From an uncultured Myxococcales bacterium (GTDB taxonomy: Bacteria > Myxococcota_A > UBA9042): DNA of 38,883 nucleotides. Positions 9,472 to 23,426 of the stretch are shown piece after piece. Below the pieces are notes generated by a model. That model searched no databases and was not told where the DNA came from. It was given only the letters and a program-made list of their open reading frames with translations. Numbering within the stretch: position 1 is the first letter of the stretch; every line of letters starts with the position of its first letter. The DNA is taken from NCBI GenBank assembly GCA_903955385.1, contig CAJBNH010000187.1, positions 1-38,883 on the forward strand, given 5' to 3'. The position numbers and the translations under genes were made by a program.

Positions 9472-12054
9472 TCAGGGCATCGGCATCAGCTGCGACGCTT
9501 CCTCGGCCGACAGGAAGCGTGCGCGGATCTGATAGCGGGACAACTGCGCGGCCTGACCGTGCCGCGTGGGCGTCTGGCCGGTTTGCTGGATCTTCAGCAG
9601 GAAGCCCTCGCCCGACCCAGACACCGTCAGATCGCTGCCGACAGAGCCACCCAGCACCAGCACCCGCTGCACGTCCACTCGGGTGCCCACGTCGTGCACG
9701 ACGAGCCAGTAGGAACTGTCCTGAGGCGCGATTGCCTCGACGCGAATGCGCCGCATGGCAGGGTCGCCGCCGTCGATGCGCAGGTAGTCGACGCCGGCCG
9801 CGTCATCTGCCTGTCCGACGTGCCACGCGCCAAGCACCATCGGGGTCGCGGACTCGGCGGTGTTGTTCGGCTCGGACTCGGGCTGGTCGGCCAGCCCGGT
9901 GTGGGCGTAGCGCAGCGTGTACTCGACGCCCGGCCACGGCACGCCGGCAGCAGGCTGCGGTTGGACGACGACCCGACTGGGCATTTGGTTCTGGCTGGGA
10001 AGGAAGGCGAGCGTGGCCTTGTGTTCGTCCGGGCGCAGCATCTGGCTGGCCAAGATGCGGTTGGTGGCATCGACAAGGGCAAGGCGCATCCCGGGTTGCG
10101 AGCCATCCACCTCCACCGTGATGCTGAGGATGTGCGGCCCAAGGCGGCCCTGCAGCGCGAACACGTCGCGGTCTCCCTCGCCGTCCAGGCTGGCCGAGAC
10201 CAGCGCTTCCGGCGCGACCTCGTTGCCCTGACCCTCGTCATTGGGCTCGCGTTCGAGGCCCGCATGGCCAGCTTGCACCAGCACGTGCAGGGTGTACTTG
10301 TCGCTCAAGCTCTCGCTCGCCACCGCGCCCGCCGGCAGGTATTCGGTAATGCACAGGGTCCGCACGGGCTTGCGCAGGTCGGGATGCCGCAGCTCCTCGC
10401 CCCGCCCTCGCCCGCGGTGCGACTGGGTCAGCAGCGCTGAGCCGTCGGCCCCGTGCAGCGACACCTGCAGGTCCATGTTCGGTACGCCGGAAAGCTGCAC
10501 CGTGACGTCGTCCATGTCCTTGACCGGCGGCATCCGGTAGCAGTCCTGATCGGCGGCGGTTCCGGAGCGGCGCTTGCCGATGACGCCCGTCGCGTCGTTC
10601 TGCGGACCCAGCGAATTGGCCTGGTCCCACGTGTCGTTGGGCTCGCTCTCGCGGCCCATGGACTTCTTCGAGTCGAGCCAAAGCCAGCCGCCGATACCCG
10701 CCAGCGCCACCACCACGGCGGTGAAGAACGCAATCGCGCGCGACCTCTGCGCCCGCGTAGCCTTGGTCCGCAGCAGCTCGTCTTCGACCAAGTACGCACC
10801 GTAGTCGGCCGTTGGCAGCTTGGCCTTGCGCGGGGCGCGGCTGGTGCTGGCGCTCGGACTGGTACCGCCGGGCAGGGCGACGTCGGCAAAGCCGGTCTGC
10901 TGCGCCTGTATCAGCGCTTCGCCCAACTCGGCCATCGACTGGAAGCGCTTGGCCGGGTCCTTCTCCAGCGCCTTGGCGACGATCTGCTCCAGCACCGCGG
11001 GAACGGGGTGAGCCGGCGCGACCTCCGCCATCTTCGGCGGCGCCTCCATCAGATGCGCCTTGAGGATGTCGAACGTCGGGCGTTCGCCGCCGAACACGTG
11101 CAAGCCGGTCAACATCCGGAACATCAGGGCGCCCACGGCGTAGATGTCGGCGCGGTGATCGACATCGCCGGCGCGGATCTGCTCGGGGCTCATGTAGTAG
11201 GGCGTGCCGAAGATGTCCCGCTGGGAGTGGATCGTGTACGGGTCGTCGGCGCCTTTGACCTTGGCCAAGCCGAAGTCGAGGATCTTCACGAAGTCCGGAT
11301 GCGCCGCTCCGGTGACCATCATGACGTTCTCGGGCTTGAGATCGCGATGGACGACGCCGTGTTTGTGGGCCTCGGCCAGCGAGTCGCACATCTGCAGCAC
11401 GATGCGGGCCACACGCTCGGCGGGCAGTGGCCCTTCCCGTTCGAGCAGGGCATCCAGCGCCTCACCCTCCAGCAGCTCCATCACCAGATAGAACAGCTCT
11501 CCCCAGCGGCCAAAGTCGTACACCATCACGGTGTGCGGGCTGGAAAGCCTGGAGATCGCGCGGGCTTCGCGGGTGAAGCGGCTGACCAGTTGCTTGCGGG
11601 CAACGAGGTTCTCGTGCAGCAGCTTGATCGCCATCACCTTGCGCAGGTGGATCTGCTCGACGCGGTACACCGCCCCCATGCCGCCGCGGCCGATCAGTGA
11701 CACGACCAGATAGCGGTCGTCGATCAACTTGCCGATGTAGGCGCTCTGCTCTTCCTCGTTGAGCGCGGGGGGCGTGTCGTCGATGGGCTCAAGCGTCGTG
11801 ACGAAGGTCTGCGCTTCCGACAACGTCGCGGGAGGATTGGGGTTGATCAGGGTGCGCTGGCGCTCGATCCGGCCGACCGGTGGCAGTCCAGCAGTGGGTA
11901 GCGTCATGTCGGCGGGGGCGACAGGGACGGGCGACGGGCCGAGGATGGCAGGCTCGTCACCAGGGCGCGGCAGCGATTGCAGGGGCGAACCGTCCTCAAG
12001 GCAGAACTGGCTGGCCTCAGAGTAGGTTCGTCGGCAACTGGCGCAAATCTTCAT
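9472..12054 (-). CDS. Transmembrane Ser/Thr protein kinase with zinc ribbon and PPC-like repeats
   Basis: The start at 12054 gives 860 residues. An N-terminal zinc ribbon (CASC at 4-7, FCLEDG at 17-22) leads through a Pro-rich linker to a complete Hanks-type kinase domain (about 114-375). This shows GRGGMGAVY (122-130), invariant Lys144, HRDLKPEN (236-243), DFG (260-262) and SPEQI (289-293). One membrane helix follows (about 441-460). The outer part has three repeats opening with SEPNDT, REPNDE and SEPNNT, the hallmark of pre-peptidase C-terminal (PPC) beta-sandwich domains. An inside kinase and outside sensor topology is inferred. The frame is open to 12141, but MKICASC is the natural beginning because the ribbon starts there. 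Targets are unknown. Confidence 0.93.
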   Translation of the reverse strand: MKICASCRRTYSEASQFCLEDGSPLQSLPRPGDEPAILGPSPVPVAPADMTLPTAGLPPVGRIERQRTLINPNPPATLSEAQTFVTTLEPIDDTPPALNEEEQSAYIGKLIDDRYLVVSLIGRGGMGAVYRVEQIHLRKVMAIKLLHENLVARKQLVSRFTREARAISRLSSPHTVMVYDFGRWGELFYLVMELLEGEALDALLEREGPLPAERVARIVLQMCDSLAEAHKHGVVHRDLKPENVMMVTGAAHPDFVKILDFGLAKVKGADDPYTIHSQRDIFGTPYYMSPEQIRAGDVDHRADIYAVGALMFRMLTGLHVFGGERPTFDILKAHLMEAPPKMAEVAPAHPVPAVLEQIVAKALEKDPAKRFQSMAELGEALIQAQQTGFADVALPGGTSPSASTSRAPRKAKLPTADYGAYLVEDELLRTKATRAQRSRAIAFFTAVVVALAGIGGWLWLDSKKSMGRESEPNDTWDQANSLGPQNDATGVIGKRRSGTAADQDCYRMPPVKDMDDVTVQLSGVPNMDLQVSLHGADGSALLTQSHRGRGRGEELRHPDLRKPVRTLCITEYLPAGAVASESLSDKYTLHVLVQAGHAGLEREPNDEGQGNEVAPEALVSASLDGEGDRDVFALQGRLGPHILSITVEVDGSQPGMRLALVDATNRILASQMLRPDEHKATLAFLPSQNQMPSRVVVQPQPAAGVPWPGVEYTLRYAHTGLADQPESEPNNTAESATPMVLGAWHVGQADDAAGVDYLRIDGGDPAMRRIRVEAIAPQDSSYWLVVHDVGTRVDVQRVLVLGGSVGSDLTVSGSGEGFLLKIQQTGQTPTRHGQAAQLSRYQIRARFLSAEEASQLMPMP

Positions 12055-15073: not shown

Positions 15074-16186
15074 TCACCTCGACTTGCGACGGGTGGCGAT
15101 GTTCACCAGAAAGCCGATGCCCAGCAGCACCGTCAGCGAGCTGGAGCCGCCGTAGCTGACGAGCGGTAGGGTGAGCCCCACGACCGGCAGCAGACCGATC
15201 ACCATCCCCGCGTTGATGAAGAATTGCCAGAAGATCAGCGCCGCCACGCCGACGGCTACCAGCGCGTCGAACCGCTCCTGCGCATGGTCGGCGAGATGCA
15301 ACGCCCATGCCACAATGGCGGCATAGAGCCCGAACAGGAAGAAGCACCCGAGCAGCCCGAACCGCTCGGCATAGGCAGCCAGCGCGAAGTCCGTGTGCAG
15401 GAAGGGCAAGTGCCGCAGCACCGAGCTTCGCGCGTCACCGTCGGATCGTCCCGAGAACTTGCCGGAGCCCACCGCCCACAGTGCCTGCTCTGCCTGCGAG
15501 CTCTGAGCCGAGCGCTTGTCGGCAACCGCTTCCTCGTCGAGCGAGAGCCACGCCTCGACTCGGCCCTTCTGGTAGTTGCGAATGACGCCGAATTCCCAAG
15601 CGACCGGCACCGCCAGCATCACCACGACCAAGCCGGCCATCAGCGTGCGGCCGTGGATGCCGTCGTAGAGGATGATGCTTGCGGCCACCAGGGCGACGCA
15701 CAGCGAGGTCCCCAGGTCCGGCTCGAGGTTGATCAGCACGACCGGCAGCATCATCAGCGCGACGGGAGCCAGCAGGTGCCGGGCCAGCGACGCCGAGTTG
15801 GCGCGCTTGCGGTCGAAATAGTCCGCGAGCATCAGGATGATACTCAACTTCATGAATTCACTGGGCTGAATGTTGGCCGGGCCCAGTTCGATCCACCGAC
15901 GGCTGTAGTTGATCTCGCGTCCGACGACCAGCACGGCGGCCAGCAACACCACCACCACCTGGTAGAGCGTGGGACTCAGCTTGCGCACGAACGCGACGTC
16001 CATGCTGGCGACCACACCGGCGGCCATCAGCCCCAGCACGATCCAGATCGTCTGGGTGCGGTGGTAGGTCATCCCGGTCAGCGTGTCGGTGAAGGTCAGG
16101 TTTTCAATCGCGATGCCGCACAGCAGCAGCACGCTGACCAGCCCCAACCAGGTCGACGGGCGATTCAGGGACTTCCATGCGCTCAC
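15074..16186 (-). CDS. rodA: Rod-shape SEDS peptidoglycan glycosyltransferase RodA
   Basis: RodA polymerises lipid II glycan strands in the elongasome, paired with PBP2. The 370 residues form a multi-spanning SEDS protein with about ten hydrophobic helices. Family features include the SRRWIELGPANIQPSEFMKL block, EPDLGTSL, the loop Asp region HTDFALAAYAERFGLLGC and the C-terminal GLTLPLVSYGGSS. The loop between the central helices (about 205-250) is charged and somewhat Ser/Ala-rich. Its start overlaps the PBP2 gene by four bases, indicating translational coupling of the two partners. Confidence 0.95.
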   Translation of the reverse strand: MSAWKSLNRPSTWLGLVSVLLLCGIAIENLTFTDTLTGMTYHRTQTIWIVLGLMAAGVVASMDVAFVRKLSPTLYQVVVVLLAAVLVVGREINYSRRWIELGPANIQPSEFMKLSIILMLADYFDRKRANSASLARHLLAPVALMMLPVVLINLEPDLGTSLCVALVAASIILYDGIHGRTLMAGLVVVMLAVPVAWEFGVIRNYQKGRVEAWLSLDEEAVADKRSAQSSQAEQALWAVGSGKFSGRSDGDARSSVLRHLPFLHTDFALAAYAERFGLLGCFFLFGLYAAIVAWALHLADHAQERFDALVAVGVAALIFWQFFINAGMVIGLLPVVGLTLPLVSYGGSSSLTVLLGIGFLVNIATRRKSR

Positions 16187-18639
16187 GGCGGACCTCCGGG
16201 GGCGGTCGGTGCAGCCTTCGGAGCGGGTACTGGGGCCAGTTGTGGCGGTGGCGGGGCTTCGTCGAGCACACCCTCGTCCGGGACGTTCTCGTGCGGCGCA
16301 GGCGCGGGCGGGGCGTCCAACAGCTCGGACGGCTGCGCGTTCGGGTCGGGCTCCGCCGGTGCCTCGGCCGGCGTCTCGAGGGGCGCGGTTGCGGCGGGGG
16401 CAGCGTCAGTCGGCGGCAGATCGGGGGCGGTGGCGGCCGGATGTGGCTTGCGGGTGTCCATGGGCGGCGCGGCCACACGAGAGCGAGCAAACCACGCCTC
16501 GACCACCTGCTTGGCGATAGGGGCTGCATTGTGCCCGCCGCTGCCGCCGTGCTCGACGAACACGACCACAACGATCTCCGGGTTTTCCGTGGGCGCGTAG
16601 CCGGCAAACCAGGCGTGGTCGTTCTGCAGCCAGTTCACGAGGCGGGTGGTGGCGACCGGGTCGTCCTTCAGCTTCTCGAGGATTTCGGGTCGGGCGCGCT
16701 GAGCCGCCTGCGCGGTCCCGGTCTTGCCTGCGATGTCGACGACGGTCGGCCGGGCGCTGCGGGCCGTGCCTCCCTCTTCGTTGACCACGGCCACAAGCGA
16801 CTTGCGCAGGAACGCCAGCGTCGCGTCCTTGAGGCCCATCGAGCGACCCGGTCGGGGCGGCAGGGGCGTCAGCTTGCCGTCGGGCGTCTCGAAGCCGCGG
16901 ATGAGGCTGACCTGCGGCAGTACACCGTTGGTGGAGATGGCGACAAACGCCCGGGCGATCTGCAGGGGCGTGGTCGTCACGTCCTTCTGGCCCACAGCGG
17001 TCGAGAGCGCGAACCCGGGGAAGTACCCGCCCTTGACGTGATCGTGATACCAAGCGCGGTTCGGAACTCGGCCCACCGCCTCAGAGATCTCGATGCCGGT
17101 CTTCTCGCCGAAGCCCATCGCCAGCGCGTACTTCTCCAGCCGGTCCAGGCCCAGCAGATCGCCCAGGTGGTAGAAGTAGATGTCACAGCTGTTGCGAAGG
17201 GCCTCGTGCAGGTCCAGCTCGCCGTGGCCCTTGCGGTCATAGCAGTGGAAGCGGCGACCACCGAACTCCAGATAGCCGCCGCAGTAGAACGTCGTGGTGG
17301 GGCGCACGACACCTTCCTCCAGCGCCGCCGCCGCCGTCACCACCTTGTAGACAGACGCGGGCGGAAAGGCCGTGACAGCCTTGTTCATCAGCGGCGCGTA
17401 GGCGGCGGCCTCGTCCAAAGTCCGCGACTGGGGCGTTCGCTTGCCCGACAGCGTGTTGGGGTCGAAGCCGGGCTTGGAATACATCACCAGGACCTGACCG
17501 TTGTGCGCGTCCAGCACCACGACCGCGCCCGAGTACACGTCCTTCATCGCCACTTTGGCCGACCGCTGCAGCTCCAGGTCCAGCGTGGTCCGCACCGACA
17601 GCCCCGGGACCGCGGGCTTGGGCTGCATGGCCGCGATCAGCTCGTCCAGATCGCGCGCCTGTTCCTCAGCCCCGCCCTTGCGCACCAACACTTGCTCGCC
17701 GTCGGTGCCTCGCAGCGTGACGTCCAGCGCACGCTCCAGACCGCTGCGGCCGACCTTGTCGTTCAGCCCCAGCTGCGATGTCTGTCCCAGCGCCTCGAGC
17801 TCCTTGCGGCTGACGAAGCCCATGAACCCGAGGACGTGGCTGGCAAGGTAGCGGTACGGGTATTCACGTTGAATATCCGCTACAACGCGGGCTTCCGGCA
17901 GCCGATGCAGATTGGCGCGCAGTACCGCGACTTCGTCGTTGAACGACCGCCGACACAAGGGACATCGCAGGATGTGCTTGCCGTGCGCGATGTTGTGGTG
18001 GTCGTGCGGGCAGACGTCGCCGTCCAGGAACTCGCGGTCACAGCTGGCGCAGTGAAAGCCCGAGCCATCGCCGACTGCCAGGAGCTTCTTCTGGTCGAAC
18101 GGGCACGCGCGCCGCTTGGGCAGGGGCTCGTAGTAGCGGCCGCAGGTCGTGCAGAAACCGTAATTCGTCTCTGACACAAGCTCCAACTGACTGGAATCAT
18201 AGGGACAGTGCGTGGAGACCAGGTCCCGGCGCACCACCAGCGGGCGGCGCTTGCGGGGGTCGACCGGGCGATTCAGATCGGCGATCAGGCCGTCCCTCTC
18301 CGCATCGGTCATGTCGAGCAGGCTGCGCAGGGTCTTGGCGATCTCGGGAATTCGCTCTGGTTTGATGCGGTTGGTCAGCAACTCCAAACGGTGACTCTCG
18401 ATGTTTCGCGCAAGCACCGTACCGTCGGCGCCCTTGATCAGTCCCCGCGGTGCCTGTGCGCGGACCTTGGCCACGCGCTCGATCGCCGCGAACCGTTCGT
18501 ACCGCTCGCCACGCACGACCTGCACCAGCGTCAGCCGCGCCCCCAGCAGCATCACGCCCACCACTACGACGGCCAGCGCAAACCGGTTGTGACCGTGAAA
18601 GCGCTGTGCGTCGTGCGATGGACCCAAGGGGACGCTCAT
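16183..18639 (-). CDS. mrdA: Penicillin-binding protein 2 with Cys-rich zinc-ribbon insertion
   Basis: The 818 residues form a class B PBP2, the transpeptidase of rod elongation. A membrane helix (about 20-40) is followed by the pedestal domain and a transpeptidase domain with SVYK (Ser429, Lys432), SCD (484-486) and KTGT (639-642). Inside the pedestal, about residues 144-230, lies an insertion absent from typical PBP2 with nine cysteines: 145, 163, 166, 179, 197, 200, 210, 226 and 229. They alternate as CPYD, CTTC, CPFD, CASC, CPHD, CPLC, like tandem zinc ribbons. The C-terminal 80 residues are Pro/Ala/Glu-rich. Usual PBP2 length is about 630, and the insertion and tail explain the excess. 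It overlaps rodA by four bases. The insertion would lie in the periplasm, an odd place for zinc ribbons. Confidence 0.93.
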   Translation of the reverse strand: MSVPLGPSHDAQRFHGHNRFALAVVVVGVMLLGARLTLVQVVRGERYERFAAIERVAKVRAQAPRGLIKGADGTVLARNIESHRLELLTNRIKPERIPEIAKTLRSLLDMTDAERDGLIADLNRPVDPRKRRPLVVRRDLVSTHCPYDSSQLELVSETNYGFCTTCGRYYEPLPKRRACPFDQKKLLAVGDGSGFHCASCDREFLDGDVCPHDHHNIAHGKHILRCPLCRRSFNDEVAVLRANLHRLPEARVVADIQREYPYRYLASHVLGFMGFVSRKELEALGQTSQLGLNDKVGRSGLERALDVTLRGTDGEQVLVRKGGAEEQARDLDELIAAMQPKPAVPGLSVRTTLDLELQRSAKVAMKDVYSGAVVVLDAHNGQVLVMYSKPGFDPNTLSGKRTPQSRTLDEAAAYAPLMNKAVTAFPPASVYKVVTAAAALEEGVVRPTTTFYCGGYLEFGGRRFHCYDRKGHGELDLHEALRNSCDIYFYHLGDLLGLDRLEKYALAMGFGEKTGIEISEAVGRVPNRAWYHDHVKGGYFPGFALSTAVGQKDVTTTPLQIARAFVAISTNGVLPQVSLIRGFETPDGKLTPLPPRPGRSMGLKDATLAFLRKSLVAVVNEEGGTARSARPTVVDIAGKTGTAQAAQRARPEILEKLKDDPVATTRLVNWLQNDHAWFAGYAPTENPEIVVVVFVEHGGSGGHNAAPIAKQVVEAWFARSRVAAPPMDTRKPHPAATAPDLPPTDAAPAATAPLETPAEAPAEPDPNAQPSELLDAPPAPAPHENVPDEGVLDEAPPPPQLAPVPAPKAAPTAPGGPP

Positions 18640-18658: not shown

Positions 18659-19192
18659 TCAACGGTTGCGGGTGCGCAGGACGCTGGCCGTCAGGCCGCG
18701 CTGCTGTGCGTCGAAGCGTCGGGTGACGCGGTCGAAAAGGGCAAAGTGCACCGGGGCCACCAGCATGGTGATCAGGGCCAGTGGCAACGCCATGCGCACG
18801 ACCTCGCCCCACGCTTCGAAGCTGCGGTGGAAGATCGCCTCCAGAATCAGGAAAAGCAGTGTCGCGGCCAGCGAGGCCCCGGCGGCAGTCGCCATCAGCG
18901 GCACGGGGCTGCGCAGGTCGACGCGGCGTTCCAGCAGGCGCGCGGCCAGCACCGCCAGAACGTTGATCTCGGTGTATAGACCGACCGGCGCCGCAAGCGA
19001 GAAGCCGTCCTTGAGCAGGCCGGTGGCGAATCCGACCACGATGGCCGAACCGAGTGTCGAGCGACTGCCGACGAACAGCGCCGTCAGCAGGGCGATGTCG
19101 GGCGCGAAGAACTGGCTGTCGAGTCGGCCCAGCAGCGGGGCAACCAGCGCCAGCAGCAGAAACGTCAGCAGGATCCAGGTGGTTTCCTTCAT
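18659..19192 (-). CDS. mreD: Rod-shape-determining protein MreD
   Basis: MreD is a small integral membrane component of the MreBCD elongasome. The 177 residues are almost wholly hydrophobic, with five or six predicted helices and short charged loops. GFATGLLKDGFSLAAPVG matches the conserved MreD core motif (G-x-L-x-D). It lies between mreC (15 bp) and mrdA (19 bp) on the same strand. Sequence similarity in this family is weak, so the call leans on topology, the core motif and the operon order. Confidence 0.88.
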   Translation of the reverse strand: MKETTWILLTFLLLALVAPLLGRLDSQFFAPDIALLTALFVGSRSTLGSAIVVGFATGLLKDGFSLAAPVGLYTEINVLAVLAARLLERRVDLRSPVPLMATAAGASLAATLLFLILEAIFHRSFEAWGEVVRMALPLALITMLVAPVHFALFDRVTRRFDAQQRGLTASVLRTRNR

Positions 19193-19207: not shown

Positions 19208-20134
19208 CTAAGGCGGCCCGTCTGGCGTGTTGGCGGGGTCGACAACGCGCGAGGCCGGCTTGCCCGTGTCGGCCGGCGTCGGTGGGGCTGCGAATCCCGT
19301 GACGATGAGGACCTCCTCCAGCGTCGCATACGACACCGCCGGGGCCAGCACGAACTCGTGGTAGGGCCCGTTCTGGATGGCCGCACCCTCAGCGATATGG
19401 CCGATCTCCAGCCCTGGGGGAAAGATGCGGTCGTGGCCTGTCGTCAGCACGGCGTCGCCAGCGCGGATCGGCACGGTGCGGTCGACGCGGTCCAAGTACA
19501 CGAAACGCGCCTCGAATTCGTTGCGCTTGCCCTTGCCGTGGACCGAACCGATGACGCCCTTGCCCGGGATGGTGGCGTGTACCTGCGAGCGCGTGTCCGT
19601 CACCAGCATCACGTCGGCGTGTCCGCCGCTGACCCGCTCGATGTGGCCGACCACGCCGTCGTGGGTGATCACCGATTGGCCCTCGCGCACGCCTTGGGCG
19701 CCCTCGACGTCGAGCGTCAGCCGCACCACCTGAAAGAACTGCGACACATCGCGGCCCACCACGCGTGCTGGCAGGGTCGCCAGGTCCTTGCGTTCCTCTC
19801 GAAAGCCGCACAACTGCTTGACGCGATGCAGCTCGTCGGCCTGCGCGCGGCTCTTCAGTGCCTCGCCCAACAGGATGCGATTCTCGTGTTCCAGATCCCG
19901 GTTTCGCGTCTCGGTGTGGGTCAGCATCACGTAGCCGGCGACCAGATCGCGACCAGCAATGATCAGGTCGTTGCCGGCACCGGTGACGGGCGAGGTGATG
20001 GTCAGCAGCGCGCGCTCCAACAGGCTGGTCTCTGTCCGCGTCTTGCCGTGGAAATACATCGAGCCCACCGGCAGCACGAGCGCCAGCGTCAGCAGCAGCG
20101 TCTGGCGGTAGCGGGCCAACAGTTCTCGAAGCAT
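19208..20134 (-). CDS. mreC: Rod-shape-determining protein MreC
   Basis: MreC is a periplasmic scaffold of the elongasome that contacts PBP2. The 308 residues begin with a basic N-terminus and one membrane helix (about 10-28), then a helical segment likely to form a coiled coil (about 70-110, ETRNRDLEHENRILLGEALK). A beta-rich domain follows with ARVVGRD, GVREGQSVITHDGVVGHIE, a VMLVTDTRSQVHA strand and the GDAVLTTGHDRIFPPGLEIG motif. The last 30 residues are Pro/Thr-rich. mreB is not in the window; an unrelated membrane-protein gene lies upstream instead, so mreB must be elsewhere. Confidence 0.93.
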   Translation of the reverse strand: MLRELLARYRQTLLLTLALVLPVGSMYFHGKTRTETSLLERALLTITSPVTGAGNDLIIAGRDLVAGYVMLTHTETRNRDLEHENRILLGEALKSRAQADELHRVKQLCGFREERKDLATLPARVVGRDVSQFFQVVRLTLDVEGAQGVREGQSVITHDGVVGHIERVSGGHADVMLVTDTRSQVHATIPGKGVIGSVHGKGKRNEFEARFVYLDRVDRTVPIRAGDAVLTTGHDRIFPPGLEIGHIAEGAAIQNGPYHEFVLAPAVSYATLEEVLIVTGFAAPPTPADTGKPASRVVDPANTPDGPP

Positions 20135-22184: not shown

Positions 22185-23426
22185 TCACGCGCGCTCGAAC
22201 GGAAACGCCAGCACCTCGTCGATCTCGTCGTAGCCCCCCAGCGCCATCAGCAGCCGGTCCACGCCCAGCGCCACGCCGGCGGCCGGGGGACAACCTTCGG
22301 CCAGCGCGGACAAGAAACGCTCGTCGATCGGGTACTCGGGCAGCCTCGCCCGTCGCCGCGCGGCCAGATCGAGCTCGAAGCGCGCGCGCTGCTCGACCGG
22401 GTCCACGAGCTCGGTGAAGCCGTTGGCCAGCTCGATGCCGTGCAGGTAGATCTCGAACCGCTGCGCCAGCCACGGCCGGTCGTCGAATCGCCGCGCCAGC
22501 GACGCCATCGACGCGGGCCAGCGGTCCAGCACGACTGCCGGAAAGTCCGCGAGCTGCGGTTCGATTCGTTCGACCAGCGCCCGCACGATCACCGCGTCGG
22601 CCGTCTCGTCATCCTCCACCTGCAGTCCCGCCTGCCGGGCGCGGGACCGCACCAGCGCGTCGTCGTCACCGCGCCCCGGGTCAAAGCCGGCAAAGCGCTG
22701 CAGCGCTTGGCGAATCGACAGCCGCAGCCACGGTGATCGCGGGTCCAGCCGCTTGGGCGGTAGCGGTCGACCGGACGCTGTGCGGCCCTTGGCCAGCGCC
22801 GCCGCACAGTCGCGCATCAGATCGCGCGCATCGCGGACGAGCGACTGGTAGCTCTCGCCGGCCCGATACCACTCGAGCATCGCGAACTCAGGGTTGTGGT
22901 GCACGCCGCGCTCTCCCGACCGGAAGGCATGGCCCAGGCTGTAGATCCTCTCGAATCCCGCCGAGAGCAGCCGCTTCATGTGGTACTCGGGGCTGGTCAC
23001 GAGAAACCGCTCGACCGGTTCGCCGCCCATGCCCTGCCGCAGCTGCACCCGCACGGCGTCCAGATGCAGCTCGAGTCCGGGAGAGCGCGCCATCACCGGC
23101 GGATCGACCTCGACGAAGCCGCGGCGGTCGAAGAAGCGTCGGATCGCCTGCAGCAGCCGGGCGCGGTCCAGAACCGCCTGATGGCGCAACGCCCCTCGGT
23201 CGACCATGCGGTGGAAGTCACCGTCAGGATGCGGGAATTCCGGCGAGGTGCAGGGGCTGGCAAGCGTCGCGGCGTCCTGCCGCAGGTCCACGATATCGCC
23301 GGGACGCACGCTGCGCGGCAGGTCCGCAGGCCAGGTACGGTAGGTCGTCGCGCCCTGCTGACCAAGCCACAAACCGCCGTTATCGACCGCGAGAATACGG
23401 AACAGATGCGAGGACTTGTGCGCCAT
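22185..23426 (-). CDS. epmA: EpmA-like elongation factor P lysine ligase (LysRS paralogue)
   Basis: The protein is a class II lysyl-tRNA-synthetase core without the tRNA anticodon-binding domain, the EpmA/PoxA/GenX architecture. EpmA activates beta-lysine and attaches it to a conserved lysine of EF-P. Motif 2 appears as FRSGERGVHHNPEFAMLEWY and motif 3 as GVALGVDRLLMAL; GIELANGFTEL is the conserved amino-acid-site block. At 413 residues it is longer than E. coli EpmA (about 325), owing to an N-terminal extension of about 80 residues of beta character, possibly a degenerate OB-like fold. efp and epmB are not in the window. It lies 5 bp downstream of the 207-aa exported-protein gene. Confidence 0.85.
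   Translation of the reverse strand: MAHKSSHLFRILAVDNGGLWLGQQGATTYRTWPADLPRSVRPGDIVDLRQDAATLASPCTSPEFPHPDGDFHRMVDRGALRHQAVLDRARLLQAIRRFFDRRGFVEVDPPVMARSPGLELHLDAVRVQLRQGMGGEPVERFLVTSPEYHMKRLLSAGFERIYSLGHAFRSGERGVHHNPEFAMLEWYRAGESYQSLVRDARDLMRDCAAALAKGRTASGRPLPPKRLDPRSPWLRLSIRQALQRFAGFDPGRGDDDALVRSRARQAGLQVEDDETADAVIVRALVERIEPQLADFPAVVLDRWPASMASLARRFDDRPWLAQRFEIYLHGIELANGFTELVDPVEQRARFELDLAARRRARLPEYPIDERFLSALAEGCPPAAGVALGVDRLLMALGGYDEIDEVLAFPFERA

Follow-up and report, generated by a model that had tools for sequence, protein, structure and literature searches.

PBP2 gene and its neighborhood

The window analyzed here, a stretch of 38,883 nucleotides from an assembly of 5.3 Mb in 201 contigs (most of the relatives that have names being MAGs of Myxococcales or Deltaproteobacteria), carries at positions 16183-18639 a gene for a PBP2 (MrdA) of 818 residues with an insert in its head subdomain. 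The gene is on the minus strand, as are all of the features whose coordinates are given below. Its product scored 505.5 bits against the NCBIfam PBP2/mrdA equivalog model TIGR03423, thereby passing the cut-off of 455 bits, and contains the PBP_dimer and Transpeptidase domains of Pfam. All of the catalytic motifs listed in the first-pass annotation were found, namely SVYK with the active-site serine (residues 429-432, 17344-17355), SCD (residues 484-486) and KTGT (residues 639-642, 16714-16725), and judged by these motifs the enzyme is intact. A single TM helix was predicted by hydropathy at residues 20-43 (18511-18582), and in the topology of class B PBPs the residues of PBP2 that follow the N-terminal TM helix are periplasmic. 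The next gene in the cluster encodes RodA (15074-16186), and the cluster also includes the genes for MreD (18659-19192) and MreC (19208-20134); the same mreC-mreD-pbp2-rodA order was seen in the relatives L002, L006 and L007. By its sequence, the ORF is a bona fide PBP2/MrdA of the elongasome.

Residues 722-818 of the protein (window positions 16183-16476) are Pro/Ala-rich and probably form a disordered periplasmic tail, which is shorter in relatives. Elsewhere in the window, an ORF at 22185-23426 resembles, as judged by eye, a truncated lysyl-tRNA synthetase of the EpmA/GenX type. One of the related loci, L001 (CAMDBH010000014.1), is titled as a Klebsiella pneumoniae MAG and encodes an insert-bearing PBP2 of 62% identity, together with RodA and the HD-domain gene of the Myxococcota cluster; given that this contig carries Myxococcota PBP2 cluster genes, the Klebsiella label must be wrong.

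Position and composition of the insert

Alignment to PBP2s that have no insert identified about 93 extra residues (residues 141-233, 17941-18219), which also appeared as a gap in alignments to PDB entries and are bounded by the strand RPLVVRRDL before them and the helix NDEVAVLRANLHRL after them. When aligned to the PBP2 of A. baumannii, whose head subdomain comprises aa 78-165 (PMC9974482), the insert falls inside the head. The first-pass annotation had described, within the periplasmic pedestal, an insertion of tandem zinc-ribbon-like units that typical PBP2s do not have. This description is supported, the position being more exactly in the head subdomain. The PBP2 structures that were matched align on both sides of the insert and not across it, and in alignments to insertless relatives the extra residues are located at this same point.

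The insert has nine Cys (residues 145, 163, 166, 179, 197, 200, 210, 226 and 229), which lie in six knuckles with CPxD and CxxC taking turns along its length: C145-P-Y-D148 (18196-18207), C163-T-T-C166 (18142-18153), C179-P-F-D182 (18094-18105), C197-A-S-C200 (18040-18051), C210-P-H-D213 (18001-18012) and C226-P-L-C229 (17953-17964). These positions in the ORF translation agree exactly with the series CPYD, CTTC, CPFD, CASC, CPHD, CPLC that had been read beforehand. At a background of 0.7% Cys, derived from six neighboring proteins, the probability of nine Cys in 85 residues is about 1e-8, so the cluster is not a product of chance. The insert is under strong purifying selection, with dN/dS values of 0.01-0.13 in nine pairs of close relatives, which are similar to those of the rest of PBP2. 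A frameshift or misassembly is ruled out by the open frames, the low dN/dS and the intact inserts in six families; the earlier judgment that the insertion is not a misassembly is likewise upheld by the low dN/dS and by its presence in every readable member of the family.

Distribution and evolutionary history

All nine Cys were kept in each of the 20 readable PBP2 genes of the same family, a count which leaves out two members without a readable PBP2, and intact nine-Cys inserts were also found in seven genomes that represent five further families of the class (G022, G023, G029, G034, G035, G036 and G041). The first-pass annotation had proposed, as a test of its own claim, that the nine Cys should be conserved within a clade, and this was observed. 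In G038, a nine-Cys insert is divided between two contigs. In the thirteen genomes of families f5 and f12, the insert consists of a single ribbon with the form CPxD-x(n)-CPxCG and 3 Cys. Decayed inserts were present in G026 (7 Cys), in G027 and G031 (4 Cys) and in G039 (4 Cys), and the PBP2 of G024 has no insert. In the decayed inserts of L035, L038 and L036, the four Cys that are left are at differing positions, possibly reflecting a change from metal to disulfide in the same loop.

Our survey covered this phylum, with a search of 120 genomes. From outside the class 21 PBP2 genes were fetched, and the insert was absent from all 20 that were read through the head (these do not include L070). 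In a tree of the transpeptidase core, built by a quick search with SH-aLRT support, the class formed one clade with 100% support. As the class is a single clade and the insert is absent from the PBP2s read elsewhere in the phylum, the insert is best read as having been gained once, on the stem of the class. The one-ribbon form was also one clade (99% support), and may be either the ancestral or a reduced state. Three decays were independent of one another, those of G026, of G027 together with G031 (the sister of the intact G034) and of G039 (the sister of the intact family f9), while G024 lies inside a clade of mostly intact members (95% support), which indicates a loss. Having been lost wholly in one family and having decayed in three lineages, the insert is not essential for PBP2 as such; it is nevertheless a real, conserved and clade-defining feature.

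Predicted metal ligands and their alternatives

Among 18 diverse inserts there were 15 invariant columns (C4, P5, D7, L11, C22, C25, G26, C38, C56, C59, C69, D72, L83, C85 and C88, in alignment numbering), 11 of which are predicted metal ligands. The twelfth ligand, D41 (the Asp of CPFD in knuckle 3), is Asp in all of the 18 rows except one, in which it is His; in the full set, His occurs here in L024-L026, which are of one genus. Each repeat therefore presents Cys, Asp, Cys and Cys, the sole accepted replacement being His, another metal ligand. Six knuckles with 12 conserved ligands are what is expected of zinc ribbons that each have two knuckles and four ligands, with the CPxD Asp as the most likely fourth ligand in every ribbon. 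Such a pattern suggests three Cys3Asp metal sites, which are likely to hold zinc, and not disulfides.

The possibility of a disulfide module had been raised in the first-pass annotation. The insert is located in the periplasm, an oxidizing compartment, where its Cys could form structural or switchable disulfides and bring the module under redox control. The decayed inserts of G027, G031 and G039 each keep 4 Cys, an even number that could make two disulfides, and some of these decayed family members may indeed be disulfide-bonded; in addition, a disulfide is present close to the active site of the H. pylori enzyme (PMC5626683). For the intact inserts, however, the proposal is weakened by the Cys3Asp pattern, in view of the fact that every intact member in the 27 genomes has nine Cys, three per unit (one has a tenth), and that the Asp of CPxD varies no more than the Cys do, with His as its only substitute. 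Disulfides would leave both this Asp and the knuckle spacing unexplained. Based on the three Cys and one Asp per repeat and the odd total of nine Cys, a metal fits better, and we consider a disulfide module to be unlikely. With regard to the identity of the metal, rubredoxin has the same two-knuckle fold and could suggest an iron site, or another non-zinc metal, for electron transfer. The rubredoxin site is Cys4, however, whereas the sites of the insert always have one Asp or His ligand, and the gene cluster contains no redox partner, making an electron transfer site the least credible of the readings considered here. The loss in G024 and the three independent decays could also be taken as signs of a neutral passenger that is tolerated in a loop, but the low dN/dS and the ligands that are invariant across six families leave little likelihood for such a passenger.

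Fold model and structure searches

AlphaFold2 was run with eight sequences from related loci, and hence with a shallow alignment. For the insert alone, folded as a fragment of 115 residues, the model had a pLDDT of 85-90 at residues 30-90, and in it each of the six knuckles is flanked by a short strand pair, i.e., is within a short hairpin. As read from the strand positions, hairpins lie between knuckles 1 and 2, 3 and 4, and 5 and 6. The insert as modeled thus has its knuckles in beta-hairpins, the arrangement by which zinc ribbons are recognized. The full-length model was poor (pLDDT 50) and was not used for placing the insert on the head.

No match to the insert model at E <= 0.001 was obtained with Foldseek against the PDB. 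The weak matches were largely to zinc-bearing proteins (PriA, NudC, ribosomal proteins, YfgJ and Nob1), those to NudC and to eukaryotic and archaeal large-subunit ribosomal zinc proteins being at about 2 A over 31-32 residues. In PriA, the cysteine-rich region comprises two ribbons that are nested. It was this region (4nl8, 6dcr) that gave the best Foldseek probability, up to 0.69, at an E of about 0.14 only; unlike the insert, PriA is cytosolic, with Cys8 and two zincs, and no sequence relation between the two was shown. No relevant Pfam zinc-ribbon model scored above its cut-off for the insert (e.g., Zn_ribbon_6 reached 17-18 bits, with a cut-off of 25), and because all Pfam matches are sub-threshold the insert is filed under no single Pfam family.

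Two arrangements of the knuckles around the metals may be considered. The pairing may be sequential (1 with 2, 3 with 4, and 5 with 6), which is favored by the hairpins of the model and by the CPxD...CPxC order of the one-ribbon form. Alternatively it may be nested, with 1 and 6 outside and 2 with 3 and 4 with 5 inside, as the CxxC...CPxD order of the kinase-type ribbons and the pattern of co-loss would suggest. All three independent decays have lost both Asp148 and Cys229, and in them Cys145 and Cys226 share one fate, being kept in G026 and G027/G031 and lost in G039. Under a nested reading, two, two and zero Cys would be left per site in G039.

A second predicted zinc site in the transpeptidase domain

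The PBP2 of A. baumannii (7zg8, PMC9974482), the ectodomain of which has zinc at an equimolar ratio that is required for rod shape (PMC9974482), and the class B PBPs of C. difficile, with their related zinc sites, provide examples of periplasmic PBPs that bind zinc. In our alignment, the four ligands of an A. baumannii-type zinc PBP, located around the SxN/D motif and in the preceding hairpin, all have counterparts in the present protein: C453, C466, H472 and C485 (17185-17283) align with D350, D365, H371 and C384, and this predicted site, which is separate from the insert, would be kept as Cys-Cys-His-Cys. Cys at ligand positions 1, 2 and 4 and His at position 3 were found in nearly all readable class members and in many members of the phylum. 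Asp and Cys are exchanged at the transpeptidase zinc-ligand positions as well. The A. baumannii site belongs to the transpeptidase domain, where it is beside the active site, whereas the insert forms its own module in the head, for which up to three more metals are predicted. Since the ligands match those of A. baumannii, zinc in the present PBP2 is expected on independent grounds. The first-pass annotation had remarked that zinc ribbons usually work in the cytoplasm; a periplasmic zinc site in PBP2 is less odd than this suggests, given the zinc in the transpeptidase domain of A. baumannii PBP2 (PMC9974482) and the matching ligands here.

Proposed role beside the MreC-docking surface

In H. 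pylori, MreC binds the PBP2 head via Leu69', Phe71', Tyr127' and Tyr134' once the anchor swings away (PMC5626683). If the chain numbering is taken as residue numbering, H. pylori position 150' aligns with residue 257 of our protein, and by ungapped extrapolation 127' and 134' come near residues 234 and 241. This is the helix by which the insert is directly followed (residues 236-243, 17911-17934, a low-confidence part of the full-length model). The insert would accordingly adjoin, inside the head, the helix that matches the MreC-zipper stretch of H. pylori. Opening of PBP2, probably promoted by the binding of MreC to the pedestal, activates RodA-PBP2 (PMC10257715).

We propose that the three zinc ribbons, each with three Cys and the CPxD Asp, would form a structural metal module that is built into the PBP2 head and projects into the periplasm beside the MreC-docking surface. 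Such a module would enlarge or stiffen the head and add a clade-specific contact surface in the elongasome, for MreC, RodA or another envelope partner. We infer zinc occupancy, the Asp ligand and a role in docking for the insert, and a structural zinc module that enlarges the head and its contacts beside the site of MreC docking is in our opinion the probable explanation for it. The ribbons might otherwise serve as a zinc or redox sensor, along the lines of the metal- or redox-sensitive switch suggested in the first-pass annotation, i.e., a periplasmic metal- or redox-responsive allosteric element in which loss of the metal or oxidation of the ribbons alters the head, gates PBP2 opening and with it RodA activity, and ties elongation to zinc supply. 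PBP2 opening does control the activity of RodA-PBP2, with MreC acting at the surface beside which the insert is located (PMC10257715), and the zinc dependence of A. baumannii PBP2 was tied to zinc supply by its authors (PMC9974482). However, ribbons usually hold zinc tightly and structurally, and the surroundings of the cluster yielded neither a regulatory partner nor a gene linked to zinc; a gating element of this kind therefore seems rather improbable.

Whichever function the module has, the present protein shares with known PBP2/MrdA (TIGR03423) its catalytic motifs, topology, RodA/MreC/MreD cluster and PBP_dimer and transpeptidase domains, but the known proteins are without the about 93 head residues and three ribbons that it carries. 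We found no description of a PBP2 ribbon insert in the open literature that was searched, where it is apparently undescribed. PBP2 is essential and serves as a drug target. Its head is where MreC turns on synthesis, and the conserved three-ribbon module sits in exactly that subdomain. The related genomes present a graded series, from no insert through one ribbon to three, with decayed and lost forms as well, which represents a natural experiment on what a regulatory surface of the elongasome needs. Folds of this kind are uncommon outside the cytoplasm, and the insert contributes a further one, which has several ribbons and probably binds zinc. Should the allosteric reading be true, a whole bacterial class would tie cell elongation to its zinc or redox state via a domain added to the elongation synthase.

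Relation to kinase ribbons

The first-pass annotation had likened the insert to a ribbon in the kinase encoded at 9472-12054, and as far as the motif is concerned this is right. The N-terminus of that kinase carries a single kinase-type ribbon, CASC-x10-CLED (11992-12045; CASCRRTYSEASQFCLED), which lies outside PBP2 and is given for comparison only. A profile of the insert was searched over 53 relatives and, besides PBP2, produced weak matches, 14 of which were read; at least 10 of these 14 were ribbons that open Ser/Thr kinase-like proteins or lie close to their N-termini (e.g., FCRSCGRHYRGGRRQCPHD and FCSACSRSFPSSERQCPDD). The N-terminal ribbons of Ser/Thr kinases in these genomes (CxxC-xRxF/Y-x(n)-CPxDGxxL), the sequences closest to the insert there apart from PBP2, have the same knuckles as the insert and the same Asp at the fourth ligand position. 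They differ from it in being cytosolic, single and N-terminal, whereas the PBP2 insert has three ribbons in tandem, is internal and periplasmic, and has a knuckle order that starts with CPxD. One may possibly have descended from the other, but ribbons so short converge easily. As seen in L078, L079, L081-L085 and L088-L091, many Ser/Thr kinase-like proteins of this class have a single CxxC...CPxD ribbon at their start or close to it. Lastly, an ORF of 156 residues in L086 has two CPxC/CPxD...CPxC units that resemble TFIIB-type ribbons (CPVDGAVM...DRCPRCQGLWLDRGE), with the knuckles in the same order as in the one-ribbon PBP2.
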